Assembly: GCA_028283825.1 (NCBI GenBank)
Contig: JAPWJW010000003.1
Span: 1,077,501-1,141,500, forward strand
DNA from: Azospirillaceae bacterium
Lineage (GTDB): Bacteria; Pseudomonadota; Alphaproteobacteria; Azospirillales; Azospirillaceae
Length of the DNA: 64,000 nt
Direction of reading: 5' to 3'
In this document: in pieces, positions 4,781 to 57,918 of the stretch
Layout of the letters: every line of letters starts with the position of its first letter
Numbering within the stretch: the first letter of the stretch is position 1
Notes under the pieces: model-generated
Told to the model about the DNA's origin: nothing
Database searches by the model: none
The model's input: only the letters and a program-made list of their open reading frames with translations
Translations under genes and position numbers: made by a program

Positions 4781-4824
4781 CAAAAAGCGAAAGGCCCGCC
4801 CCGGATCACTCCAGAGCAGGCCTT
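4781..4824 (-). terminator. Rho-independent terminator of maeB
   Basis: The arms AAGGCCTGC and GCGGGCCTT (one mismatch) are followed on the minus strand by TTTCGCTTTTT, about 70 nt after the maeB stop codon. It sits between maeB and the tetR promoter. Confidence 0.65.
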
Positions 4825-4893
4825 CCATACTTTGCACTCTATCCGGGCACTCCATCCAGGCGGATGGCGCCCGCAGGCAAGCAACCTAAACCC

Positions 4894-7179
4894 TTAAGCC
4901 CCCTCGCCCGCCTCGTACATCTGGGCGTCCACCACGGCCAGGGCCGACATGTTGACGATACCGCGCACGGTGACGGACGGGGTGAGGATGTGCACCGGCT
5001 GGGCGGCACCCAGCAGCACCGGCCCCACCGGCTGGCCCTCGCCCAGGGTCTTCAGCAGGTTGAAGGCGATGTTGGCGGCGTCGCGGCTGGGCATGATCAG
5101 CAGGTTGGCCGTGCCCTTCAGGCGGCTGTTGGGGAAGACCCGGTCGCGGATGTCGGCGGAGATGGCGCTGTCAGCGTGCATCTCACCCTCGACCTCCAGC
5201 GTCGGGCAGGCCTGCTCGATCTTGGCCAGCGCCTCGCGCATCTTCAGGGCGGAGGCGTCGGCATGGCTACCGAAGTTGGAATGCGACAGCAGCGCCACCT
5301 TGGGCACCACGCCGAAGCGCCGCACCTCTTCCGCCGCCAGCGCCGTCATGGCGGCGATCTGGTCGGCCGTCGGCTCGGCGTTCACATAGGCGTCGGCCAG
5401 GAAGAAGGTGCCCTTGGGCAGGATCAGCACCGACAGGGCGGCCGGGATGGTGGTGCCCGGCTTCAGGCCGATGACGTCCAGCACGTGTTCCAGATGCCAG
5501 TCATAAAGACCGACGGTGCCGGCGATCATGGCGTCGGCGTCACCCTTGCGCACCAGCATCGAGCCGATGACGGTGGTGTTGGCGCGCACGACCTGCCGGG
5601 CGCGGTCGGGGCTGACGCCGCGACGCTCCATCAGGCTGTGATAGCTCTGCCAATAATCGGCATAGCGGGGGTCGTTCTGCGGATCGACCAGTTCCACGTC
5701 GCGGTCCAGCGCGATGCGCAGGCCCAGCTTCTCGATGCGGCGGGCCACCACCTCGCGGCGGCCGATCAGGATGGGCTTGGCCAGGCCGTCGTCCACCACG
5801 AACTGCACGGCGCGCAGCACCCGCTCCTCCTCGCCCTCGGCGTAGACCAGGCGCTTGGGCGCCTGCTTGGCGCGGGAGAACACCGGCTTCATCAGCAGGC
5901 CGGAACGGAAGACGAACTGCGACAACCGCTCACGATAGGCGTCGAAATCGGTGATGGGCCGCGTCGCCACGCCGCTGTCCATGGCGGCCTTGGCCACCGC
6001 CGGCGCGATCTCCAGGATCAGGCGCGGGTCGAAAGGCTTGGGGATGATGTTGTCGGCGCCGAAACCGGTCGATTGGTCGCCGTAGGCGGCGGCCACCACG
6101 TCATGCTGTTCCGCCATGGCCAGGTTGGCGATGGCCTTCACCGCGGCGATCTTCATCGCCTCATTGATCTGGGTGGCACCCACGTCAAGCGCACCCCGGA
6201 AGATGAAGGGGAAGCAGAGGACGTTGTTGACCTGGTTGGGGTAGTCGGACCGGCCGGTGGCGATGATGGCGTCGGGCTGCGCCTCGCGCGCCTCTTCCGG
6301 CATGATCTCCGGCGTCGGGTTGGCCAGCGCCAGGATGACGGGCTGGCCCGCCATCTTGGACACCATGGGCTTGGTCAGGACGCGCGGCGCCGATAGCCCC
6401 AGGAAAATGTCCGCGCCCTCGATGATGTCGTCCAGGGTACGGGCGTTGGTCTTCTTGGCGTAGCGCGCCTTGCGCGGGTCCATCAGTTCGGTGCGGCCGT
6501 CATAGACCACGCCCTTGATGTCGCTGACCCAGATGTTGTCCACCGGCATGCCCATGTCGACCAGCAGGTCCAGGCAGGCCAGGGCGGCGGCGCCGGCGCC
6601 GCTGGCCACCAGCTTGACCTCGTCGATCTTGCGGTTGCGCAGCTTCAGGGCGTTGGTGATGGCGGCGGCGACGATGATGGCGGTGCCGTGCTGGTCGTCA
6701 TGGAAGACCGGGATCTTCATGCGCTGACGCAGCTTGCTTTCCACCTCGAAGCATTCCGGCGCCTTGATGTCCTCAAGGTTGATGCCGCCGAAGGTGGGTT
6801 CCAGCGCCGCGATGATGTCGACCAGCTTATCGGGATCCTTCTCGTCGATCTCGATATCGAAGACGTCGATGCCGGCGAACTTCTTGAACAGGACGCCCTT
6901 GCCTTCCATCACCGGCTTGGCGGCCAGCGGGCCGATGTCGCCCAGGCCCAGCACGGCCGTGCCGTTGGTGATGACGGCCACCAGATTGCCGCGCGAGGTC
7001 ATCTGGCTGGCTTCGGCCGGGTCGGCGACGATGGCCTCACAGGCGAAGGCCACGCCCGGCGAATAGGCCAGCGCCAGGTCGCGCTGCGTCGCCAGCGGCT
7101 TGGTCGCCTGGACGGCGATCTTACCGGGCGTCGGCAGCCGGTGGTAATCAAGGGCGGCTTCGCGAAACTCGTCAGACAT
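4894..7179 (-). CDS. maeB: NADP-dependent malic enzyme with phosphotransacetylase-like domain (MaeB type)
   Basis: The protein has about 761 residues, the usual length of MaeB-type malic enzymes. It decarboxylates malate to pyruvate with NADP reduction. The N-terminal malic domain has [24 protein letters not shown] and [15 protein letters not shown]. The NAD(P)-binding domain has [16 protein letters not shown]. The C-terminal third is a phosphate acetyl/butyryl-transferase-like domain ([15 protein letters not shown], ending [13 protein letters not shown]), which in this family is regulatory, responding to acetyl-CoA, rather than catalytic. The ATG at 7179 ([14 protein letters not shown]) fits the family N-terminus better than the ATG at 7206. 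It is monocistronic and has its own terminator. Confidence 0.93.
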
Positions 7180-7354
7180 GGGGCCGGTCTCTTCTGCGGG
7201 GAACAAGGCACTTCTTGCTTAGGCTGCGGGGGCCGCGATTGTCCAGAGGCGAACGGCTGGCAGGTGCCATTCCGCGCCCGCAGCACCCCCCAGGCATGCG
7301 TTCAACCCAGTATACGTTTCCCTTCATCCGGGCAACCGATACCCCGGATACGCG

Positions 7355-7385
7355 AAAGGCCGGTTCCACGGGGGAACCGGCCTTT
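7355..7385 (-). terminator. Terminator of tRNA-Leu
   Basis: A perfect 13-bp stem, AAAGGCCGGTTCC / GGAACCGGCCTTT, with a 5-nt loop begins 7 nt after the tRNA 3' end on the minus strand. The T-tract is short (TTT). Confidence 0.75.
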
Positions 7386-7392
7386 CAAGAGA

Positions 7393-7477
7393 TGGTGCGG
7401 TCAAGAAGACTCGAACTTCCACGGGTTGCCCCACAGCGACCTCAACGCTGCGCGTCTACCAATTCCGCCATGACCGC
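7393..7477 (-). tRNA. tRNA-Leu (anticodon GAG)
   Basis: This is an 85-nt minus-strand class II tRNA. The acceptor stem GCGGTCA pairs with TGACCGC, followed by A and an encoded CCA. The anticodon stem CAGCG/CGCTG encloses the loop TTGAGGT, giving anticodon GAG for CTC/CTT leucine codons. A long variable arm and the T-arm sequence GTTCGAGTC are present, as expected for tRNA-Leu. Confidence 0.95.
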
Positions 7478-7657
7478 ATCATGTCAGAACCTCGTCGGCA
7501 AGGGCTTGCCAACGGGTGAAGGGGGGAATAGCAAATCGCCGATCCCATAGCAAGCCCCTGTATGGCGCTTACCAGCGCTGCGGGCTCGCTATATATAAGG
7601 TGTGCTTCCTATATAAGGGGGCCGCCCCCGGCTTTCACACGACAGGCCCGTTCCCCG

Positions 7658-8368
7658 ATGTCCCTGCCCCAACCCGCCGCCGCCGCGATCCCCGGCCCCG
7701 AATGGAAGATCAGCGACCAGCCGGCACCCTATCCCGAGGCCGTGGCCGCGATGGAGGAACGGGTGGCCGCCATCCGCGCCGGTACCGCGCCGGAGCTGGT
7801 ATGGCTGCTGGAACACCCGCCGCTCTACACCGCCGGCACCAGCGCCAGGCAAGAGGATCTGCTGGACCATGGCCGATTCCCAGTGTTCCAGACCGGGCGC
7901 GGCGGGCAGTTCACCTATCATGGCCCCGGCCAGCGCGTGGCCTATGTCATGCTGGACCTGATGAAGCGCGGGCCCGACCTGCACGCCTATGTCACCAACC
8001 TGGAAGAATGGATCATCCGCACCCTGGCCCTGTTCAACATCAAGGGTGAACGGCGGTGCGGCCGGGTGGGCATCTGGGTGGACAAGCAGCCCTACGGCGG
8101 GCTACCCGGCCAGGAGGACAAGATCGGCGCCATCGGCGTGCGGGTGCGGCGCGGCGTCACCTATCACGGCATCTCATTGAACGTGGACCCGAACCTCAGC
8201 CATTTCGGCGGCATCGTGCCCTGCGGCATCACCCAATATGGCGTCACCTCCATGCACGCGCTGGGGCATCTGGCCAGCCTGCATGAGGTGGACGCGGCGA
8301 TGCGTGACGCCTGGGACGGCGTGTTCGAGACCGCCGGCGGCGTCACGGTGGGGACCTGCGCCGGCTAG
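7658..8368 (+). CDS. lipB: Lipoyl(octanoyl) transferase LipB
   Basis: The protein has 236 residues. It transfers octanoyl from acyl-ACP to lipoyl domains of 2-oxoacid dehydrogenases and GcvH, the first step of protein lipoylation. Family motifs are clear: [43 protein letters not shown] (conserved Lys) and [10 protein letters not shown] with the catalytic Cys at about residue 189. The ATG at 7658 was chosen because it precedes the conserved region at the usual distance; the open frame extends further upstream into promoter-like sequence. lipA is not in the window. Confidence 0.93.
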
Positions 8369-8481
8369 GCGGAAGAACCCGCATCGCGGGTATCCGTTTG
8401 GCTGGTGATCGCCTGATAGTTGGATTCCCGCTTCCGCCACCCGCATAGTGGCCCCTCACACCACAGGGGTTGGAGGGGGCG

Positions 8482-9249
8482 GTGGAAACCACGCTTGTGT
8501 CCCGGCCGGTCGCGACGGCCGACCGGCATGCCTTTTACCTGGCGATGGCGACCGCGTTCATGGCGATCGCCTTCGGGGGCTTCATCCCCACCTACTGGCG
8601 GCCAGTGATCAACGGCACCTTCCACCGGCCGGCGATCCTGCACATCCATGGCTTCGTCCTGTTCAGCTGGTGCCTGTTCTATTTCGTGCAGACGGCCCTG
8701 GTGGCGCGCGGCCGCACGCCGGACCATCGCAACTGGGGCCTGGCCGGCATCGCGCTGTTCAGCGTGATGGTCTGCACCATCCTGGCGAGCCAAGTGGCGA
8801 TTCTGAAGTTGAACGAGCAGCTGGGATATGGTGATCAGGCGCGGCGTTTCGCGGCCGTGGGCCTCACCGCCCTGCCGGGCCTGATCGCGGTTTTCGCGGC
8901 GGCGATCGTGATGGTTCGCCGGACGGAGACGCACAAGCGGCTGATGGTGCTGCTCATGACCATGCTGATGCAGCCCGCCGTCGCCCGGGTTTTCGTGACC
9001 TTGCTGGCACCGGCCGGCGCCTCGGAGGGGCCGCCACCGCCGCCGTTCGTCGCGGTTCCACCGGGATTGGTGGCGGACCTGCTGATCGTCGTCGCCCTGG
9101 TTCATGACTGGCGTACCCGGGGCCGGCCGCACCGGGTCTATGTCTACGGATTGCCGCTGGCCATCCTGAACCAGTTGATCGTGATCCCCGTCGCCGGCAG
9201 CGCGGCGTGGATGAACTTCGCCACCAGTTTCGGGCGAATCCTGGATTGA
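8482..9249 (+). CDS. Multi-pass membrane protein of unknown function
   Basis: The protein has 255 residues and about six or seven hydrophobic helices. The motif RPAILHIHGFVLFSWCLFYFVQ near residues 55-77 has two closely spaced histidines, and PDHRNWGLAGI follows. This arrangement is common in uncharacterised bacterial membrane proteins and could bind a metal or heme. The GTG at 8482 is preferred because GGAGGGGG lies just upstream; a TTG at 8470 also opens the frame. It is flanked by lipB upstream on the same strand and convergent mscL downstream. I do not recognise a named family. Confidence 0.7.
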   Translation: METTLVSRPVATADRHAFYLAMATAFMAIAFGGFIPTYWRPVINGTFHRPAILHIHGFVLFSWCLFYFVQTALVARGRTPDHRNWGLAGIALFSVMVCTILASQVAILKLNEQLGYGDQARRFAAVGLTALPGLIAVFAAAIVMVRRTETHKRLMVLLMTMLMQPAVARVFVTLLAPAGASEGPPPPPFVAVPPGLVADLLIVVALVHDWRTRGRPHRVYVYGLPLAILNQLIVIPVAGSAAWMNFATSFGRILD

Positions 9250-9284
9250 GGCCGGGCCGCGACGGCGCCCCGGCACCCGTCGGC

Positions 9285-9686
9285 TCAGTTCCTGGCCTTC
9301 AGCAGGTCGCGGATTTCCTCCAGCAGCACTTCCTGCCGGGGCGGGGCCGACACCGCCTTGGTACGGAAGCGGTTCACCTGCTTCACCAGCAGGAACACGG
9401 CAAGCGCCACGATGAAGAAGCGGATCACGACGTTGATGAAGACGCCGTAGTTGATGGTGGCGATGCTCGCGTCCTGGGCCGCCTTCAGGCTGGGGTAATG
9501 CTCGCCGTTCAACGCCACGAAGTAGCTGGAGAAGTCGATGCCGCCCAGGAGGTAGCCGATGGGGGGCATGATCAGGTCATTGACCAGCGAATTGACGATA
9601 CCGGTGAAGGCGGCGCCGACGATGATACCAACCGCCAGGTCGATGACGTTGCCCCGGCTGATGAACGACTTGAACTCTTCCCACAT
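9285..9686 (-). CDS. mscL: Large-conductance mechanosensitive channel MscL
   Basis: The protein has 133 residues and forms a homopentameric inner-membrane channel that releases solutes on hypo-osmotic shock. The family signature is intact: EEFKSFISRGNVIDLAVGIIVGAAF for TM1, NDLIMPPIGYLLGG, a second helix (INVVIRFFIVALAVFLLV), and the C-terminal helix LLEEIRDLLKARN. The ATG at 9686 follows AAGGGG at good spacing; the upstream ATG at 9719 adds 11 residues not typical of the family. Immediately upstream are two long intergenic palindromes. Confidence 0.95.
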   Translation of the reverse strand: MWEEFKSFISRGNVIDLAVGIIVGAAFTGIVNSLVNDLIMPPIGYLLGGIDFSSYFVALNGEHYPSLKAAQDASIATINYGVFINVVIRFFIVALAVFLLVKQVNRFRTKAVSAPPRQEVLLEEIRDLLKARN

Positions 9687-9720
9687 GCGCTTATCCCCTT
9701 GCTTGTGCGGGCCCTGCATT

Positions 9721-9766
9721 AGAGCGGAACGCGATCAGGTGGCATCACCTGATCGCGTTCCGCTCT
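9721..9766. repeat. Intergenic palindrome 1 (21-bp perfect stem)
   Basis: AGAGCGGAACGCGATCAGGTG is followed by GCAT and its exact reverse complement. This matches the AGAGC...GATCAGGTG type of dispersed intergenic palindrome common in alphaproteobacterial genomes. It lies just upstream of mscL. Confidence 0.85.
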
Positions 9767-9778
9767 ATCATGAACAGC

Positions 9779-9822
9779 TTTAGAGCAAGATGCGATCACG
9801 CGTGATCGCATCTTGCTCTAAA
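9779..9822. repeat. Intergenic palindrome 2 (44-bp perfect palindrome)
   Basis: A 22-nt arm beginning TTTAGAGCAAGATGCGATC is followed without any loop by its exact reverse complement. It shares AGAGC ends and an internal GATCA with palindrome 1, so it looks like the same repeat family. Confidence 0.85.
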
Positions 9823-9880
9823 TCGGGCCCTTCATGGCTTGACCGGCACAGTATGCCGACAGCGGACATGCCGGGTCACT

Positions 9881-9929
9881 AGAGCAGATCGCGAAAAGGT
9901 GGAATCACCTTTGAAGCGTGAATCTGCTC
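9881..9929. repeat. Intergenic palindrome 3 (imperfect, same family)
   Basis: AGAGCAGAT and ATCTGCTC form the outer arms, and AAGGTG-GAAT-CACCTT forms the inner stem. The internal bases between them do not pair fully. The same AGAGC ends and GGTG-N4-CACC core as palindrome 1 tie it to that family. Confidence 0.75.
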
Positions 9930-9965
9930 GCAACCGGCTATCACCCACAAGGGACGTGAACAAAC

Positions 9966-9995
9966 GAAAGGCCGGCCTGTTTCCAGGCCGGCCTC
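9966..9995 (-). terminator. Terminator of the che operon
   Basis: An 11-bp stem, AGGCCGGCCTG / CAGGCCGGCCT, is followed on the minus strand by TTCGTTTGTT, about 30 nt after the cheR stop codon. This fits a Rho-independent terminator for cheAWYBR. Confidence 0.8.
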
Positions 9996-10024
9996 CGTTT
10001 GAAACACGGGAATGACAGCGATCG

Positions 10025-10834
10025 TCAGGCCAGGACGTACAGGCCGCGCTGGCCGTCCATCGGCTTGAACTTATCGGTGATGCCCAGGACCGTTTCGGCA
10101 CCGCCCAGGTACAGCACGCCATCGGGCGGCATCTGCTTGGCGATGGCTTCCAGCACCTTGGTCTTGGTGGGCTGGTCGAAATAGATCAGCACGTTGCGGC
10201 AGAACACCACGTCGAACTGGCCCAGCGGCGACAGGTCGGTCAGCAGGTTGTATTCGCGGAAGTTAGCCATCTGCCGCACCTGCGGCGACAGCTGCCACTT
10301 GTCACCCATCTGCTTGAAATATTTCACCAGATGGGTGATGGGCAGGCCACGCTGCACCTCGAACTGGGTGTAGATGCCGGCGCGCGACTTCTCCACCATT
10401 TCCGACGACAGGTCGGTACCCACGATCTCGATCCGCCAGCCGGCCAGACGCACCGAATCTTCCGCCAGCATCATGGACAGGGAGTAGGCCTCCTGCCCGC
10501 TGGAGCAGGCGGCGGACCAGACGCGGATCGACTTTTTGGTGGCGCGGCTTTCCAGCAATGCCGGCAGGACCACCTGCTTGAACTGGTCGAACGGCTTCTG
10601 GTCGCGGAAGAAGGACGACTCATTCGTCGTCATCGCTTCCGTGATATCCCTCAGCAAGGTTTCATCCTTGCGGGCCCGGACCGTCGTCGCCAGTTCATCC
10701 AGCGTCTTCAGGTTCCATTTACGGGCCACGGGCATGAGACGCGATTCAAGCAGGTAGGCCTTGTCCTTGGTCAGGACCAAGCCCGAACGCTGCTTCAGCA
10801 TCGTGCAGAACATGTCGAAGTCTTCGACCTTCAT
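10025..10834 (-). CDS. cheR: Chemotaxis protein methyltransferase CheR
   Basis: The protein has 269 residues and methylates glutamates of chemoreceptors using SAM. The N-terminal helical CheR_N domain is followed by the methyltransferase domain: TTNESSFFRD, VWSAACSSGQEAYSLSMML (SAM-binding loop), IVGTDLSSEMVEKSRAGIY and DVVFCRNVLIYFD. The ATG at 10834 overlaps the TGA of cheB as ATGA, which sets the start and implies coupled translation. It is the last gene of the operon, before the terminator. Confidence 0.96.
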   Translation of the reverse strand: MKVEDFDMFCTMLKQRSGLVLTKDKAYLLESRLMPVARKWNLKTLDELATTVRARKDETLLRDITEAMTTNESSFFRDQKPFDQFKQVVLPALLESRATKKSIRVWSAACSSGQEAYSLSMMLAEDSVRLAGWRIEIVGTDLSSEMVEKSRAGIYTQFEVQRGLPITHLVKYFKQMGDKWQLSPQVRQMANFREYNLLTDLSPLGQFDVVFCRNVLIYFDQPTKTKVLEAIAKQMPPDGVLYLGGAETVLGITDKFKPMDGQRGLYVLA

Positions 10835-19415: not shown

Positions 19416-21545
19416 ATGACACGTACCGCTCTGCTTGGAACCGTGGGCGCATTGGCGCTCGCAGCGCTCACCGCCGCCCCGGCGCTGGCGGCGAAGCCCG
19501 CCAACCCCTTCGCCGCCGCCAGCACCTTGCCGTTTGAGGCCCCGCGCTTCGACGTCATCAAGGACGCCGACTACCTGCCCGCCTTCCAGCAGGGCATGAA
19601 GATCCAGCTGGCCGAGATCAAGAAGATCGCCGACAACCCGTCGGCCCCCACCTTCGACAACACCCTGGTGGCGATGGAGAAGTCCGGCCGCATGCTGGAC
19701 CGGGTGAGCCAGGCCTTCTTCGGCGTGGTGCAGGCCAACACCAACGACACGCTGGACAAGGTGCAGACCGAGGTGTCGCCCAAGCTGGCCCAGCACCAGG
19801 ATGCCATCTATCTCAACGCCAAGCTGTTCCAGCGGGTCAAGGCGCTGTACGACACGCGCGACAGCCTGAACCTGAACCCTGAGCAGGCCCAGCTGCTGAA
19901 GGTCTGCTACGAGCAGTTCATCCACGCCGGCGCCCAGCTGAACGACGCCGACAAGGCCAAGCTGCGCGAGCTCAACACCACGCTGTCGTCGCTGGAGACC
20001 GCCTTCCAGCAGAAGCTGGTGGCCGCGGCCAAGGCCGGCGGCCTGGTGGTGGACGACAAGGCCAAGCTGGCCGGCCTGGGCGATAACGGCATCGCCGCCG
20101 CCGGTGAGGCCGCCAAGGGCCGCAAGCTGGACGGCAAGTACCTGCTGCCGCTGCAGAACACCACGCAGCAGCCCGCCCTGTCCTCCCTGGATGACCGGGC
20201 CACGCGCCAGGCCCTGTTCGAGCGCAGCTGGACCCGCGCCGAAACGGGCGACGCCAACGACACCCGCGCCACCATCGCCGACCTGGCCCACCTGCGGGCG
20301 CAGAAGGCCAAGCTGCTGGGCTTCCCCAACTACGCGGCCTACGTGCTGTCCGACCAGATGGCGGTGACGCCGGAGGCGGCGGAAGGCTTCATGAAGCGCA
20401 TGGTCCCCGCGCTGGCGGCGGAACAGAAGCGCGAGGCGGCGGAGATCCAGGCCCAGATCAAGAAGGACGGCCAGGATTTCGACCTGAAGCCCTGGGACTG
20501 GGCCAAGTACGCCGAAGAGGTGCGCAAGGCCAAGTACGACCTGGATGAAGGCACGCTGAAGCCCTATTTCGAGCTGCACACCGTGCTGGAGGAGGGCGTG
20601 TTCTACGCCGCCAACCAGCTGTACGGCCTGACCTTCAAGCGCCGCACCGACATCCCCGTCTACCAGCCCGACGTGCTGGTCTATGAGGTGACGGACAAGG
20701 ACGGCTCCCCCCTGGGGCTGATGTATTTCGACTACTTCAAGCGCGACAACAAGTCGGGCGGGGCCTGGATGTCCAACTTCGTCCAGCAGTCCAAGCTGCT
20801 GGGCACCAAGCCCGTGATCTACAACGTCGCCAACTTCACCAAGCCCGCCCCGGGCCAGCCGGCGCTGATCAGCTTCAGCGACGTCACCACCATGTTCCAC
20901 GAATTCGGCCACGCCCTGCACGGCCTGTTCGCCAACCAGACCTATGAGAGCCTGTCGGGCACCAACGTGGCGCGCGACTTCGTCGAGTTCCCGTCGCAGT
21001 TCAATGAGCACTGGGCGCTGGACCCCAAGGTCCTGGCCCACTATGCCAAGAACTACCAGACGGGCGAGGTCATGCCGGCCGAACTGGTGGAGAAGATCAA
21101 GAAGGCCGCCACCTTCAACCAGGGCTATGGCCTGGGCGAGGTTGTCGCCGCCGCCATGCTGGACCTGGAATGGCATTCCCTGCCGGCCGACGCGCCCAAG
21201 CAGGACGTCGACGCCTTCGAGAAGGAGGCGCTGGCCAGGGGTGGTCTGGACGTGGACGACGTGCCGCCCCGCTATCGCTCCAGCTATTTCCTGCACATCT
21301 GGGGCAACGGCTACGCCGCCGGCTATTACGCCTACCTGTGGACGGAGATGCTGGATGACGACAGCTACGCCTGGTTCAAGGACCATGGCGGCCTGACGCG
21401 CGAGAACGGCGACCGCTTCCGCGAGATGATCCTGTCCAAGGGTCACACCGAGGAATACGGCCCCATGTTCCGCGCCTTCTACGGCAAGGACCCGGACATC
21501 GGGCCCATGCTGGAGAACCGCGGCCTGGCGCCGGAAGGCAAGTAG
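19416..21545 (+). CDS. dcp: M3-family peptidyl-dipeptidase (Dcp-like), exported
   Basis: The protein has 709 residues. The N-terminus is a Sec-type signal peptide (TRTALLGTVGALALAALTAAPALAA), placing it in the periplasm. The zinc site HEFGH is at about 495-499 in TTMFHEFGHALHGLFA, with downstream conserved blocks DFVEFPSQFNEHW and YYAYLWTEMLDDD, typical of oligopeptidase A/Dcp enzymes that remove C-terminal dipeptides from short peptides. The ATG at 19416 is chosen because the signal peptide starts there. A terminator follows the stop codon. Confidence 0.92.
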   Translation: MTRTALLGTVGALALAALTAAPALAAKPANPFAAASTLPFEAPRFDVIKDADYLPAFQQGMKIQLAEIKKIADNPSAPTFDNTLVAMEKSGRMLDRVSQAFFGVVQANTNDTLDKVQTEVSPKLAQHQDAIYLNAKLFQRVKALYDTRDSLNLNPEQAQLLKVCYEQFIHAGAQLNDADKAKLRELNTTLSSLETAFQQKLVAAAKAGGLVVDDKAKLAGLGDNGIAAAGEAAKGRKLDGKYLLPLQNTTQQPALSSLDDRATRQALFERSWTRAETGDANDTRATIADLAHLRAQKAKLLGFPNYAAYVLSDQMAVTPEAAEGFMKRMVPALAAEQKREAAEIQAQIKKDGQDFDLKPWDWAKYAEEVRKAKYDLDEGTLKPYFELHTVLEEGVFYAANQLYGLTFKRRTDIPVYQPDVLVYEVTDKDGSPLGLMYFDYFKRDNKSGGAWMSNFVQQSKLLGTKPVIYNVANFTKPAPGQPALISFSDVTTMFHEFGHALHGLFANQTYESLSGTNVARDFVEFPSQFNEHWALDPKVLAHYAKNYQTGEVMPAELVEKIKKAATFNQGYGLGEVVAAAMLDLEWHSLPADAPKQDVDAFEKEALARGGLDVDDVPPRYRSSYFLHIWGNGYAAGYYAYLWTEMLDDDSYAWFKDHGGLTRENGDRFREMILSKGHTEEYGPMFRAFYGKDPDIGPMLENRGLAPEGK

Positions 21546-21634: not shown

Positions 21635-21672
21635 TGGATGTTTCCACACCAGCGGCGCGAGAATTCGGCGCG

Positions 21673-21783
21673 TGCCGCTGTAGGCTGCGGCCGCAGCCGC
21701 CGGAGCCTTTTGGGGAGCGTAGCGGACCGAAAGGCGAGGATAGCCCAAGCGGCCGGACGGCCGCGCCCGGCGCCTGAGGGGCA
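21673..21783 (+). repeat. Structured interspersed element, copy A
   Basis: This is one of three full copies in the window. It starts GCCGCTGTAGGC and ends GCGCCTGAGGGGC. Stems: GGCTGC-GGCC-GCAGCC, CCTTT/AAAGG, GCGGCC-GGAC-GGCCGC, and GCCC/GGGC around GGCGCCTGA. Copies B and C keep the same stems with different bases. It lies between convergent dcp and the amidohydrolase gene, 10 nt from the latter's stop codon. Confidence 0.85.
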
Positions 21784-21793
21784 ACGCTTGAGC

Positions 21794-22654
21794 CTATTCC
21801 GCCGCCAGGCGGCGGTCGCCGATGCGGGCGGCGGCGAAGGCGTGGATGGCGCGCATCAGCGCTTCCAGGTCATGGGACAGGCGCCAGAAGCCGTCGTGGC
21901 GTTCCAGCGTCTCCTCATCCATGTACAGCCGGCGGTCGATCTCCAGCTGCAAACTGTGGCGGCCGCGCGTGGGCACGCCGTAGCGCCGCACCAGTTCCAC
22001 CCCCTTGTAGGGGTCGTTGTGGCGCACGCGGTACCCCATGCCGCGCAGCGTGGCGGCGACGAAGCGGCTGAAGGACGGGTCGCAGCTGGCGCCATCGCGG
22101 TCGCCCAGCACGAAGTCCGCCCCGGAATCGCCGGTGCCCAGCGTCGGCATGGAATGGCAGTTGAGGTGCCAGACCTGGCCGAAGCGGCCATGCAGGTCGT
22201 CCAGCACCGCCTTCAGCTGCGCGTGATAGGGCCGCCAATAGCGTTCGATACGGGCCTGCACCTCACGCACCGTCAGCTTGGCGGCGTACAGCGCCTCCCC
22301 CGGGCGGCTGACCGTGCGCACCAGGCCCATGCCGTGGCGGCTTTTTTCCGAGGGGTTCAGGGGGCCGGGCCATGCGTCGGCCAGGCAGGCGGGGTCGATG
22401 TCGTCCTCCGCCCGGTTCACATCGATATAGCTGCGCGGGAACAGGGCCTGGATCAGGGTGGCGCCCAGTTGCGGCGCGCGGCCGAACAACTCATCCACAT
22501 GCGCGTCTTCGGACTGGCGCAGCAGCATCAGGGGGCAACGGGGCGTGAAGCCCAGGGGATAGGCGGAACCGCTGTGGGGCGAGTCATAGACGACCGGGAC
22601 CAGCGTGCCTTCCGGGTCATGGCGCACCAGCACGTCATCTATCGTGAATCGCAT
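21794..22654 (-). CDS. N-formylglutamate amidohydrolase family protein
   Basis: The protein has 286 residues. VVYDSPHSGSAYP at the N-terminus, RSYIDVNRAEDDIDP, NCHSMPT and YRVRHNDPYKGVELVRRYG are the conserved metal-binding and substrate blocks of the N-formylglutamate amidohydrolase fold, a zinc deformylase related to M14 peptidases. In histidine degradation such enzymes split N-formylglutamate into formate and glutamate. No hut genes are adjacent, so the natural substrate is uncertain. The next gene, divergent on the plus strand, is another M14-type deacylase. Confidence 0.88.
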   Translation of the reverse strand: MRFTIDDVLVRHDPEGTLVPVVYDSPHSGSAYPLGFTPRCPLMLLRQSEDAHVDELFGRAPQLGATLIQALFPRSYIDVNRAEDDIDPACLADAWPGPLNPSEKSRHGMGLVRTVSRPGEALYAAKLTVREVQARIERYWRPYHAQLKAVLDDLHGRFGQVWHLNCHSMPTLGTGDSGADFVLGDRDGASCDPSFSRFVAATLRGMGYRVRHNDPYKGVELVRRYGVPTRGRHSLQLEIDRRLYMDEETLERHDGFWRLSHDLEALMRAIHAFAAARIGDRRLAAE

Positions 22655-27068: not shown

Positions 27069-27386
27069 ATGCCCAAGATCCACGTTGTCGATGCCGATGG
27101 CGCGGAGCACGCCTTCGATGGGGATGTGAAGGCGTCCCTGATGGAAAACATCTGCGACCAAGACCTGCCGCTGGACGCCGATTGCGGCGGCTCCTGCGCC
27201 TGCGCCACCTGTCACGTCCTGGTTGACCCCGCCTGGACGGATCGCCTGGCGGAGCCCAGCCTGGATGAGCTGTCGCTGCTGGAGGAGGAATCATCCTACC
27301 GGCCCGGCCGCTCGCGCCTGTCCTGCCAGATCGACTTCCGGCCTGAACTGGATGGCCTGCGCGTGACACTGCTGCCCCGGAGATAG
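27069..27386 (+). CDS. 2Fe-2S ferredoxin (adrenodoxin type)
   Basis: This 105-residue electron carrier has the plant/vertebrate-type 2Fe-2S ligands in DADCGGSCACATCHV (Cys-x5-Cys-x2-Cys) and the fourth Cys in SRLSCQI. LDELSLLEEESSYRPGRSRLSCQI matches adrenodoxin-like ferredoxins such as those serving P450 or isoprenoid pathways. An isc operon is not adjacent, so the partner is unknown. AAGGAAA lies 7 nt before the ATG. Repeat copy B begins 5 nt past its stop codon. Confidence 0.92.
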   Translation: MPKIHVVDADGAEHAFDGDVKASLMENICDQDLPLDADCGGSCACATCHVLVDPAWTDRLAEPSLDELSLLEEESSYRPGRSRLSCQIDFRPELDGLRVTLLPRR

Positions 27387-27391
27387 TCTTA

Positions 27392-27500
27392 GCGCCCTCA
27401 GGCGCCGGGCGCCGGCATCCGCCGGCTGGGCTTCCTCGTTTAGCGGTCCACTCCGTTCCCCGCGAAACTCCGGCGGCCCCGGTCGGGGCCTGCAGCGGCG
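27392..27500 (-). repeat. Structured interspersed element, copy B
   Basis: This copy reads on the minus strand. GGCCCC-GACC-GGGGCC, GCCGGC-GGAT-GCCGGC and GCGCCC/GGGCGC stems occupy the same places as in copies A and C. The middle stem is GTTTcGCGG/CCGCtAAAC. It is bounded by the ferredoxin stop codon (5 nt away). Confidence 0.85.
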
Positions 27501-27510
27501 TGATCGCCGC

Positions 27511-27532
27511 TGCTCCTCAGGCGCCGGACGCG
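27511..27532 (-). repeat. Truncated fourth fragment of the structured element
   Basis: CTCAGGCGCCGGACGCG repeats the terminal part of copy B (CTCAGGCGCCGGGCGCC), directly beside it and in the same orientation. The rest of the element is absent. Confidence 0.5.
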
Positions 27533-27604: not shown

Positions 27605-28366
27605 TCAGGCCTTGTTGGCCAGCACCCGCTCCGACGCCAGCTCGGCCAGCACGCTCCAGCGGCTCAGCGAGATGAAGTGGGAGTAGATCAGGCCCAGGTA
27701 GCCGCGCTTGCGCCAGTCCAGGAAGACCTCGTCCGGCAGCTCGTTGAACTTCTTCTCATCGATGATGGTGAAGCCCGTCAGGGTCATGCGGCTGTTGTCA
27801 TGCGACAGCGTCAGGTCCAGGCGCTGTTCGACCAGCAGGCCACGCTCATGCAATTCCTTGCAGAAGGCGCTGGTGGCGACGGCGGACTGGTTGAAGGTGG
27901 CGCAGAAGTTCAGGGCGTCGTTGCCGGCAGCGCCGGCCTTGTCGCCCTCGAACAGGGGGATGTCGCCGTCCGGGCCCACCAGGTTGGGGTCTTCCTCGAC
28001 GCACAGCACCAGACGCTCACGGTCCGGGGTTTCCATCATCAGGAAGGGATAGCGGCGGACATAGGCCGGGATCGGCGTGTTCTTGCGCCAGTTGCCCTCG
28101 GCATCCACGAACAGGTTCTCATCCGGGCGCACGCCGGTCAGCACCACCGCCGCCGGGCTGTCGCCCAGGGTGAAGACGATGGGGTAGTTGCTGTTGAGGG
28201 CGATGAACTCTTCACCGACGATCGGAATGGCGTTGGCGTTGGCCGCGTAGGAGAAGGTCCGCTTCTGCTTCAGCTTCCATTCCCGATGGCGGTTGATGTC
28301 AACGGGAACGGGTTCCCGATAGAACGGAGGCATCTGGCCGGCTTCGGTCGCGGCGGCGTCGGTCAT
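27605..28366 (-). CDS. SapC family protein
   Basis: The protein has 253 residues. PPFYREPVPVDINRHREWKLK at the N-terminus, IPIVGEEFIALNSNYPIVFT, YVRRYPFLMMET and LDLTLSHDNSRMTLTGFTIIDEKKFNELPDE are the SapC (PF07277) pattern. The name comes from a Campylobacter S-layer export gene, but in Alphaproteobacteria the role is not established. There is no signal peptide or membrane helix. It is monocistronic. Confidence 0.87.
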   Translation of the reverse strand: MTDAAATEAGQMPPFYREPVPVDINRHREWKLKQKRTFSYAANANAIPIVGEEFIALNSNYPIVFTLGDSPAAVVLTGVRPDENLFVDAEGNWRKNTPIPAYVRRYPFLMMETPDRERLVLCVEEDPNLVGPDGDIPLFEGDKAGAAGNDALNFCATFNQSAVATSAFCKELHERGLLVEQRLDLTLSHDNSRMTLTGFTIIDEKKFNELPDEVFLDWRKRGYLGLIYSHFISLSRWSVLAELASERVLANKA

Positions 28367-31340: not shown

Positions 31341-31661
31341 CACGGAACTATCCCTCATCAAATAAGGATCAAGACATCGGCCGCGCGGCAGAACGAACAT
31401 TTCCCACGGGCACCTTTAGGCAGCGTGTTACAATTCGCGGGTCTTTGCCATGTGCAATTTGGCCGCCGGGCCCCGTAAATGCTGCATTGCGGCGCCACTT
31501 TGTAGGTAGCCCCGACGCCCAAGCGGGCACAAAGCGGCTGACGGGCTCAAAATGGCCCGGCATTGTGGGAAAATCATGGCATGCCGGACCACCTGGGCTG
31601 GTGCGGCCCATGGAACCGCCGTCGGCGGAAACGGAAACAAGAAGAAAGCGGAACCCTGCAT
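31341..31661. other. 321-bp divergent intergenic region
   Basis: The region lies between the peptidoglycan-binding gene (minus) and the HPt gene (plus) and must hold both promoters. No gene, strong hairpin or clear operator is seen. Confidence 0.5.
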
Positions 31662-32048
31662 ATGACTGCCGAAAATCACGCCGCCTCCTTGGGCGACGCG
31701 CCCGTGCTGGACCGGGGGGTGCTGACCGCCCACATGAACGATTTGGGCGTCGACCTGGTGCGGCAGATCGCCGAGAAGTATCTGGACGACGCGCCGGCCA
31801 GCGTGGCGGCGGTGCGCGCGGCGGCGGAGGCGCAGGACCTGCCCCAGTTGCAGAAGCTGATCCACCGTCTGGGCGGCGGCGCGCAAACCGTGGGCCTGGC
31901 CGCCCTGTCGGCACAGGCCAAGGCGGCGGAACACGCCCTGCGCCAGGGCCATGCCGAGGAAGGCCTGCGCGAGGCCACGCGCCTGCTGGCCCGGGTGGAC
32001 AGCGACCTCAAAACCCTGGCGGAATTCCGCGACAGCCTGAAGGGCTGA
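31662..32048 (+). CDS. Stand-alone HPt phosphotransfer protein
   Basis: This 128-residue protein consists almost entirely of an HPt helical bundle. The phospho-accepting histidine is His68 in QLQKLIHRLGGGAQTVGL, matching the HRLxGGAxxxG signature. FLDD-type DLVRQIAEKYLDDAP precedes it. It has no kinase domain, so it would shuttle phosphate between a hybrid kinase and a response regulator. The start at 31662 excludes an Arg-rich upstream stretch. An OmpR-type response regulator lies convergently next door, but a functional link is only suggested by proximity. Confidence 0.85.
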   Translation: MTAENHAASLGDAPVLDRGVLTAHMNDLGVDLVRQIAEKYLDDAPASVAAVRAAAEAQDLPQLQKLIHRLGGGAQTVGLAALSAQAKAAEHALRQGHAEEGLREATRLLARVDSDLKTLAEFRDSLKG

Positions 32049-32098
32049 AGCCGCTTCTGTGACGCCGTCATTACCAGCGGCATGAGCAATCGTCTCAT

Positions 32099-32210
32099 GC
32101 CGCTGTAGGCCCCGACCGGGGCCGCCGGACCTTTCCGGGGAGCCGCAGGCGAACTGGAAAGGGAGGATAAGGCCAAGGGCGCGGATGCGCCCGCCCGCCG
32201 TCTGAGGGCA
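32099..32210 (+). repeat. Structured interspersed element, copy C
   Basis: The element starts GCCGCTGTAGGC and ends CGTCTGAGGGCA. Stems: GGCCCC-GACC-GGGGCC, CCTTTCC/GGAAAGG, GGGCGC-GGAT-GCGCCC and GCCC/GGGC. It lies between convergent HPt and response-regulator genes, 7 nt from the latter's stop codon. Confidence 0.85.
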
Positions 32211-32217
32211 CCCTTAA

Positions 32218-32934
32218 TTAAGTCACGTCGGCGCCCAGGCGATAGCCCAGGCCCTTTTCCGTCAGGATCAGGTGCGACTGGGTGCCGCCGTCGTTCATCT
32301 TGCGCCGCAACCGGCTGACCAGCACGTCGATGGTGCGGTCGCTGGGGTTGCGGTCGGTGCCGCTGACGGCGTCGATCAACTGGTCACGCGTGACCACCCG
32401 GCCGCCGGAACGGACCAGCAGGGCCAGCAATTCGAACTCGCCGCGCGTCACCCGCACCTCGACACCCTGCGGGTCGATCAGGCGGCGGCGGGCCAGGTCG
32501 ATGGTCCAGCCGCCGAAGCGGCGCACCGTGCCCTCCGCCCGGCGCATCTTGCTGGGGTGGGTGCGGCGCAGCAGGTTGCGCGCCCGGGCCAGCAGTTCAC
32601 GCGGGTTGGGCGGCTTGGTCACATAGTCGTCGCCACCGGTTTCCAGGCCGAAGACGCGGTCGTCCTCGTTGGCGCGGCGGGTGACGATGATGATGCCGAC
32701 GTTGGAGATTTCGCGGATGTCGCGGGCGATGGAAAACCCATCCTCATCCGGCAGTTCGATGTCGAGCAGCACAAGGTCGGGCGGTTGCCGGACGATCGCT
32801 TCCCGCGTCTGCTTGCCGTTGGACGCCTCGGCAATCATGAAACCGGCCTGATGAAAGTAACCCGCCAGCAAGGCCCTGGTCGCCGGCTCGTCCTCAACGA
32901 TCAGGACCAGCGGCGCTTCCACACTCTCCGTCAT
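32218..32934 (-). CDS. OmpR/PhoB-type response regulator
   Basis: The protein has 238 residues. The receiver domain has the acidic pair in IVEDE, phospho-acceptor Asp58 in VLLDIELPDEDGFS and Lys in DDYVTKPPNP. The C-terminal winged helix has VRVTRGEFELLALLVRSGGRVVTRDQLIDAVSG and RTIDVLVSRLRRKM, ending ILTEKGLGYRL, so it is a DNA-binding transcription factor. No histidine kinase is adjacent, so it is an orphan; the convergent HPt protein is one possible phosphodonor. Target genes are unknown. Confidence 0.9.
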   Translation of the reverse strand: MTESVEAPLVLIVEDEPATRALLAGYFHQAGFMIAEASNGKQTREAIVRQPPDLVLLDIELPDEDGFSIARDIREISNVGIIIVTRRANEDDRVFGLETGGDDYVTKPPNPRELLARARNLLRRTHPSKMRRAEGTVRRFGGWTIDLARRRLIDPQGVEVRVTRGEFELLALLVRSGGRVVTRDQLIDAVSGTDRNPSDRTIDVLVSRLRRKMNDGGTQSHLILTEKGLGYRLGADVT

Positions 32935-57541: not shown

Positions 57542-57918
57542 GGTGGATCAACACTCCTCCTCGTTCGGTCCTTCGGCACCAGTTGAACCGGCCCCTACTA
57601 TGACCTCTGCTGACTTCCCGCTCCGGCTCGACACCGTCACCCTTTCAGGCATAAGGCGGGATCTCCCCAGGTAAGAGCGCGCTCCTTCACCACACAACCG
57701 CCGGATCTACGGCGCCGACCCTTGATCACGAGAGCTTCGCGGTTCATGGCCCGCTCGCCCTGCTCGGCACCGCCTTCTATCCGGTTCTTGTTCATCGGCT
57801 CGTGGTTTCGCTCCACGCTTCCTCCCCACGATCAGTCGCCCTCTCGCAGTTGCGTTTCGCTTCGTTCACCGTGATCAGCTTACGGAGGGACTTCCACCCT
57901 CAAGAACGCGCCCATGCT
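57542..57918 (-). other. Intron domains I-III (noncoding, 5' part of the group II intron)
   Basis: About 380 nt of GC-rich sequence between the intron 5' end and the RT start codon. It should fold into domains I to III. No gene is seen. Confidence 0.6.

Follow-up and report, generated by a model that had tools for sequence, protein, structure and literature searches.

Small, apparently mobile intergenic elements with a conserved pseudoknotted core in Alphaproteobacteria

It is common to regard small interspersed repeats as decayed DNA; the family described here carries a conserved fold. The ERIC, Correia-NEMIS, RUP and YPAL repeats resemble the present element in being shorter than about 200 bp, intergenic and multi-copy, with inverted ends, target duplication and a highly paired transcript. 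According to the sections of the comparison used here, most of these repeats have TA termini, are A+T-rich and form a stem loop by pairing of their 5′ and 3′ ends (PMC2229807), whereas the present element has a GC content of 0.63–0.79 (83 copies in the window's genome), a TNA duplication and a pseudoknotted multi-helix core found across families. As a small mobile repeat, it works like ERIC, NEMIS and RUP. The modules of the BOX repeat of Streptococcus pneumoniae differ from it in sequence. BOX is likewise a modular, structured and interspersed repeat that has proliferated, but in the portion of the report consulted it is described from streptococci and with different modules (PMC3049150).

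Two further families share the alphaproteobacterial background. Br-REP1 and Br-REP2 of Bradyrhizobium are placed, in the part of the study drawn on here, in overlapping 3′-UTRs of convergent genes, with several stem-loops and with Br-REP1 at about 200 sites (PMC5082802). Host class, convergent gene ends and several stem-loops are common to both, but the Br-REP consensus is absent from our copies (best 6/20 and 17/39 mismatches). The CIR repeats of Caulobacter and Brucella are also intergenic and have been given a two-arm RNA model with a conserved GANTC within a loop (PMC2229807, excerpt), but GANTC occurs anywhere in just 18 of the 83 present copies. A third comparison is MRSC-65-2 from a 50-genome ncRNA screen, which, as far as the main text describes it, is a multi-copy covarying motif of diverse phyla, read as selfish with its RNA or DNA form left open, and among 250 mobile or repeat candidates in all, the others not being shown there (PMC11109978). 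By this description, its single long stem with a UYCCGG repeat sets it apart from the present multi-helix core. The repeats of a GTA paper (PMC9836097, consulted in excerpt) were considered as well and rejected, as those exceed 800 bp. A description of the element was not found in the full-text literature searched, which comprised articles without their supplements.

In the 64-kb window, that is, the whole stretch of DNA analysed, the initial annotation had pointed to three segments that align end to end. They are indeed homologous along their entire length, and the conserved blocks and swapped stems listed for them are present in all three; the limits then given cover the core and omit a 5′ hairpin, here called P0. 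The match limits below come from a covariance model (R1) built from 25 copies of the window's genome. The three copies, A, B and C, are among these 25 sequences and hence match R1 by construction, with E-values of 3e-26, 2e-21 and 3e-32, respectively, in an 864-kb search.

21647–21781, + strand: copy A (R1 match 21649–21781, 123 bits; alignment), with P0, P1 GGCTGC/GCAGCC, P2, P3 GCGGCC GGAC GGCCGC, P4/pseudoknot and the 3′ end TGAGGGG
19443–21545, + strand: peptidase M3 gene, neighbour of copy A
21794–22654, − strand: N-formylglutamate amidohydrolase gene, neighbour of copy A
27394–27513, − strand: copy B (R1 match, 102.5 bits)
27069–27386, + strand: 2Fe-2S ferredoxin gene, neighbour of copy B
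27605–28366, − strand: SapC gene, neighbour of copy B
32072–32209, + strand: copy C (R1 match 32074–32209, 149 bits), left end TACC at 32072
31563–32048, + strand: Hpt-domain gene, neighbour of copy C
32218–32934, − strand: response-regulator gene, neighbour of copy C
32075–32105, + strand: P0 hairpin of copy C, arms 32075–32086 and 32094–32105 (sequence, fold, consensus fold)
32108–32123, + strand: P1 of copy C, GGCCCC/GGGGCC, conserved GACC loop (sequence, fold, covariation)
32130–32162, + strand: P2 of copy C, CCTTTCCGG/CTGGAAAGG, long form (sequence, fold, consensus fold)
32171–32199, + strand: pseudoknot triplets of copy C, GGC 32171–32173 with GCC 32197–32199, flanking P3 (covariation)
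32177–32192, + strand: P3 of copy C, GGGCGC/GCGCCC, conserved GGAT loop (sequence, fold, covariation)
32194–32208, + strand: predicted P4 of copy C, CCC 32194–32196 with GGG 32206–32208, including the conserved TGAGGG
7396–7477, − strand: tRNA gene (RF00005)
57568–57845, − strand: group II intron domains (RF02001, 113.8 bits; RF01998, 45.5 bits)

Copy C, with the P0 arms CAGCGGCATGAG/CTCATGCCGCTG, is the best preserved of the three. P0 of copy B has a short form, GCAGCGGCGATCACGCCGCTGC, and P5, a 3′ hairpin of some copies, is not recognisable in copy A. Besides the three full matches, R1 gives one trivial antisense match on P0 in the window. Single-sequence folding yielded z-scores of −1.5 (A), −2.1 (B) and −4.0 (C), which are not decisive alone.

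The element is about 135–180 bp long and arranged in the order P0, the P1–P4 core with its pseudoknot, an A-rich tail and sometimes P5, which is missing from many copies in the window's genome. The loops of P1 and P3 read GACY and GGAY, the block between P2 and P3 reads AAGSCAAG, and P3 is followed by CCCGSCGNYTGAGGG, involved in P4 and in the pseudoknot, in which a GSC 5′ of P3 pairs with a GSC 3′ of it. P2 has its long form in the window's genus and in contigs named Nitrospirillum, and in other genera it is reduced to a short hairpin whose loop is of the CATG or TTATG type. The unpaired blocks (the GAC loop, AAGCCAAG, GGA and GGCG..TGAGG) are kept across genera and families while the stems change. 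Likewise, the terminal hairpins vary between genomes while the core stays compact and pseudoknotted with its conserved unpaired blocks. In a subfamily of genome G010 that recurs at several places (L213, L214, L215, L230), the AAG of AAGCCAAG is replaced by an inserted hairpin, CCCC...GGGG.

Copy number was assessed in 864 kb of the window's genome (the window and 40 further tiles, each of 20 kb). A covariance-model search, as the initial annotation had proposed, gave 93 R1 matches at E ≤ 0.01 and 83 at E < 1e-8, or one per 10.4 kb, and relatives were matched too. Extrapolation from the 83 strong matches gives about 690 copies in the 7.16-Mb genome; probably, they number several hundred. All but one (L010) of the 80 strong matches outside the window, that is 79, are absent from the model by place. 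R1 also matched 150 of 150 scored candidates from 16,066 in this genome, blastn with copy C found at least 41 strong places, and each of six other genomes of the genus has at least 56 copies by R1.

Farther afield, 385 genomes sampled from the class were searched with a model R2 (E ≤ 1e-5); the core turned up in 34 of them, belonging to 28 of 277 genera, and in a sample of the phylum in 11 of 398 genomes, all 11 labelled as own or same class. An exact pattern occurred in at least 119 stretches of named genomes, of which 80 were used; as far as they could be recognised, their titles are alphaproteobacterial, two saying only Proteobacteria, and include Nitrospirillum, Azospirillum, Niveispirillum, Roseomonas, Roseococcus, Magnetospirillum, Erythrobacter, Qipengyuania, Sphingomonas and others. 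A slightly shorter pattern retrieved 48 stretches in viral contigs, and one element query had no match in phage records.

The full element, found in Azospirillaceae and one other family, has the ends TACC...GGTA/GATA and a 3-bp TNA target duplication. In A. ramasamyi (G033) and in genomes G010 and G045, near-identical copies run from TACC to GGTA/GATA, and the triplets flanking them are mostly TGA, TAA, TCA or TTA. Their ends are terminal inverted repeats (in G010, left TACCGGCGAGCCCTGATAC versus reversed right TACCATCGAGCCTTGATGG; similar in G033 and G045), each lying in a hairpin, P0 on the left and P5 on the right. The flanking 3-mers are identical at 34 of 50 paired ends, all of them TNA, against 14.6 expected from shuffling in sum (A. 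ramasamyi 10/12, shuffled 5.1; G010 19/32, 7.7; G045 5/6, 1.8), in a count that omits loci over 12 kb and repeated flanks and that comes from copies of these three genomes, not from the window's copies or core-only copies. Exact ends number 426 in G010 versus 1 and 3 in its congeners G020 and G027, with 0 in a reversed-pattern control, and by this comparison of sequences the element underwent a recent burst in G010.

Presence and absence at orthologous places point the same way. The element is absent at locus B from all six other genomes of the genus and at locus C from five of the six. In the sixth, G006, it lies reversed at locus C, starting directly after a stop TGA and with TCA, not TGA, on the other side, which counts against the reading preferred below. 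We regard mobility as established at this level of comparison. A copy at L178 consists of the ends only with TGA on either side, and one P2–P3 deletion recurs at three places (L214, L219); together, these suggest that the core is dispensable in cis for movement.

An autonomous partner with the same ends was found neither in G033 nor in the 20 G010 stretches examined among those listed. The one long pair of ends in G033, 1,011 bp apart, turned out to be an unrelated insertion within P0 of an A. ramasamyi element (L171, 503–1515), which from its ends and ORF we take to be of the IS5 type, probably IS427-like. The wide end pairs of G010 were also rejected, as the stretches examined held ordinary genes. 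When the 1,923 ORFs lying near cores were compared by all-against-all BLAST, the large groups that recurred came from viral contigs only, and a recurrent neighbour protein was discarded as partner on this ground; three proteins of one such contig were identified.

Probably, then, these are small non-autonomous MITE-like elements with a built-in structured core, moved by a transposase and selected as RNA. A DDE-type transposase acting in trans would recognise the hairpin ends and insert at TNA, and insertion in TGA or TAA stops or their complements would duplicate the stop and spare the gene. The core would be transcribed and fold as RNA, its likeliest job being an RNA-level adaptation to intergenic life, with a folded body followed by GAGG and the A-rich tail, which upstream of a gene could provide a ribosome-binding site. 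Conservation of the loops is possibly due to a bound protein of the host or of a transposon.

The siting of the copies bears on this reading. Using gene contexts from a purpose-made codon-score gene caller, we found 82 copies with two flanking genes (the 83rd lies at a contig edge), with 45 in convergent, 35 in tandem and 2 in divergent gaps, compared to 15–18, 36 and 28–30 expected by gap length; none of the 82 had its midpoint inside a called gene. There were 113 convergent pairs in total; 52 of their gaps were at least 150 bp long, and 39 held a copy. Among 67 non-edge genome cases of the pattern-selected set, 24 were convergent, 21 and 15 tandem and 7 divergent. When the upstream gene had the same direction, its stop ended exactly 2 bases before the first base of the model, which is where the element's own first base falls, in 9 of 60 copies. 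The stops concerned are four TGA, three TAA and two TAG, and the latter two count against TNA targeting, since TAG is not TNA. On the other side, 11 of the 17 parsed P5-bearing copies face a convergent gene within 400 bases. In some rows of this count, the pattern for the right end breaks off too soon; the element end coincided with the stop of the convergent gene in 4 of the 11 by script and in 6 after two rows were shifted by 4 bases by eye, and in two more it lay 4–8 bases from the stop codon.

It is possible, and of the alternatives the one we would give most room, that the core is mainly a cis-acting 3′-UTR or terminator element that stabilises or ends convergent transcripts, with mobility secondary. 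Besides the 45 of 82 copies between convergent genes, locus C speaks for it: sister genomes have a terminator-like hairpin there between the convergent genes, mostly ACGGGCCCGATC...GATCGGGCCCGT, and it is missing from the window's genome, where the element sits. However, such a hairpin persists beside the element at A and B (by eye), and on the + strand an A-rich stretch comes after the core, with no U-tract of an intrinsic terminator found 3′ of it in 149 distinct flanks of the pattern-selected set. Antisense copies were as common as sense copies in tandem gaps (20 and 15), and this near-even orientation is hard to square with a cis role that depends on a single reading direction. A transposase that duplicates TNA would often land in TGA or TAA with the stop kept, so that the target sequence alone can account for the siting at gene ends. 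The core itself needs a cause beyond TNA targeting; perhaps it works in trans, or perhaps it lets intergenic regions tolerate the element. In favour of the preferred reading, a start codon lay 10–13 bases past TGAGG in 11 of 29 same-direction cases from other genomes and viral contigs (5/15 genome, 6/14 viral); in the window's own genome, where one lay within 18 bases in 4 of 17, this spacing signal is weak.

To the initial annotation, the stems of the three copies appeared to change in step, and this holds on a wider scale. Among 25 copies of the window's genome, 18 of 39 predicted pairs show double changes. In 118 cores from many genera (115 distinct), 95.0% of cells pair compared to 71.5% after shuffling, and there are 541 double-change cells versus 183 shuffled and at most 109 with slid partners, in an alignment that was fitted to R2 and therefore favours the structure of R2. 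Both controls are thus exceeded in the wide alignment, where a lack of significant covariation had been named as the outcome that would speak against the structural claim. In its pattern-selected loci, the letters of P4 and the pseudoknot are partly imposed: AAGCCAAG...GCCCGGCG..TGAGG in the exact-pattern loci of named genomes and viral contigs, with the model-found loci free of such imposition. P4 is nearly invariant in both alignments and consequently gains little covariation support.

For the pseudoknot, the 83 copies comprise 65 GCC/GGC, 11 GGC/GCC and 1 GCC/GCC, with 6 unparsed. The middle pair swaps in step and is pairable in 76 of the 77 parsed copies, under a parser that fixes the outer G and C and so tests the middle pair only. 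The swapped state occurs in 4 of the 115 distinct sequences of the wide alignment. From these comparisons, we conclude that the P1–P4 core with its pseudoknot is kept by compensatory change across Alphaproteobacteria and that selection on the fold of the core is well supported. The claim of the first analysis that RNA or single-strand DNA structure is selected, beyond mere copying, gains support accordingly as to structure, with an element that appears both mobile and structurally constrained.

RNA rather than DNA structure is the likely form under selection. In the 83 copies, P2 has 24 G-U versus 4 A-C cells, and one further P2 pair has G-U as its consensus (57 copies). The corresponding numbers are 8 and 10 for P1, P3 and P4 combined and 26 and 23 for P0. 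The pooled core ratio of 32:14 (P 0.011 with cells treated as independent, which they are not) rests almost wholly on P2, making the strand argument suggestive and not general; the wide alignment gave 27 to 19.

A plain MITE whose stems are kept by palindrome correction at the DNA level, through template switching in hairpins, appears unlikely to us. It would fit the double changes of the wide alignment, which mostly exchange G-C for C-G, A-U or G-U intermediates being few, and the wobble without strand bias outside P2. It accounts poorly for the strand-biased wobble of P2, for unpaired blocks that are retained between genera and families whose stems differ, and for pseudoknot triplets that change together although the adjoining AAG and CCC stay non-complementary.

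Equally doubtful is that the core is the ncRNA of a transposon system (a guide, bridge or omega-like RNA or a self-cleaving ribozyme) with a SINE-like spread. The compact pseudoknotted core with conserved unpaired blocks despite genome-specific terminal hairpins, the A-rich 3′ tail and the existence of tandem arrays would suit such an origin. Yet no Rfam gathering score was reached over the element in the window and nine loci, and with E up to 10 (seven loci) only scores far below the cut-offs were obtained. Also against it are the restriction of large recurring ORF groups near cores to viral contigs and the ends-only copy, which seems to have moved as well.

To our knowledge, HUH enzymes would not be expected to leave a matched 3-bp duplication. 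A REP-like element moved by RAYT or another Y1 (HUH) single-strand transposase is very improbable: hairpins at either end, gene-end siting, many copies and the Y1 proteins present in G010 and G033 agree with it, but PF01797 (Y1) had no hit in six genomes of the window's genus, the window's own included, so that REP/RAYT membership fails, nor was Y1_Tnp found in the copy-rich G017, G030 and G045, and the Y1 genes of G010 and G033, presumably ordinary IS200/IS605-type genes, show no complete set of element-end motifs over about 1.5 kb around them. The match to a known Rfam or REP family that the initial annotation had named as refuting its claim was found neither over the element in Rfam nor as a REP/RAYT partner.

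More than 1% of the genome sequence sampled consists of this repeat family, with loops, pseudoknot and 3′ end kept across Alphaproteobacteria and stems and ends free to change. It would offer a natural experiment on which protein or ribosome contact the loops serve and on which transposase reads TNA stop codons, and it matters for how gene ends are annotated in nitrogen fixers associated with plants (Azospirillum and its relatives). In a bolder version, the core with its pseudoknot would work in trans, together with a host protein or transposase, and target the element precisely to stop codons, allowing hundreds of copies to persist between genes; it would constitute a class-wide RNA gene family within mobile DNA. 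To this speculation we give little credence; if true, it would amount to RNA-assisted transposition or an RNA-mimic system, one for which our searches turned up no described relative.

Some loci hold several cores or lie in particular contexts. Tandem core arrays with a spacing of roughly 108–128 bp occur in the window's genome at L134 (15841–16208), where a short GCGTAGCGACAAGG motif replaces the P0 hairpin, and also in L233, L261 and L263. The viral contig L236 bears portal, DUF6127 and prohead-protease genes, in an order that we take to be that of gene transfer agents, and a core lies between its portal and DUF6127 genes (6080–7844). The first 70 residues of one L236 protein are alike in proteins that follow a core in L240 and L271. 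In L240, a phage/GTA-type contig, inverted core pairs are found with their 5′ ends facing each other, four pairs within 6 kb (4817–10403).
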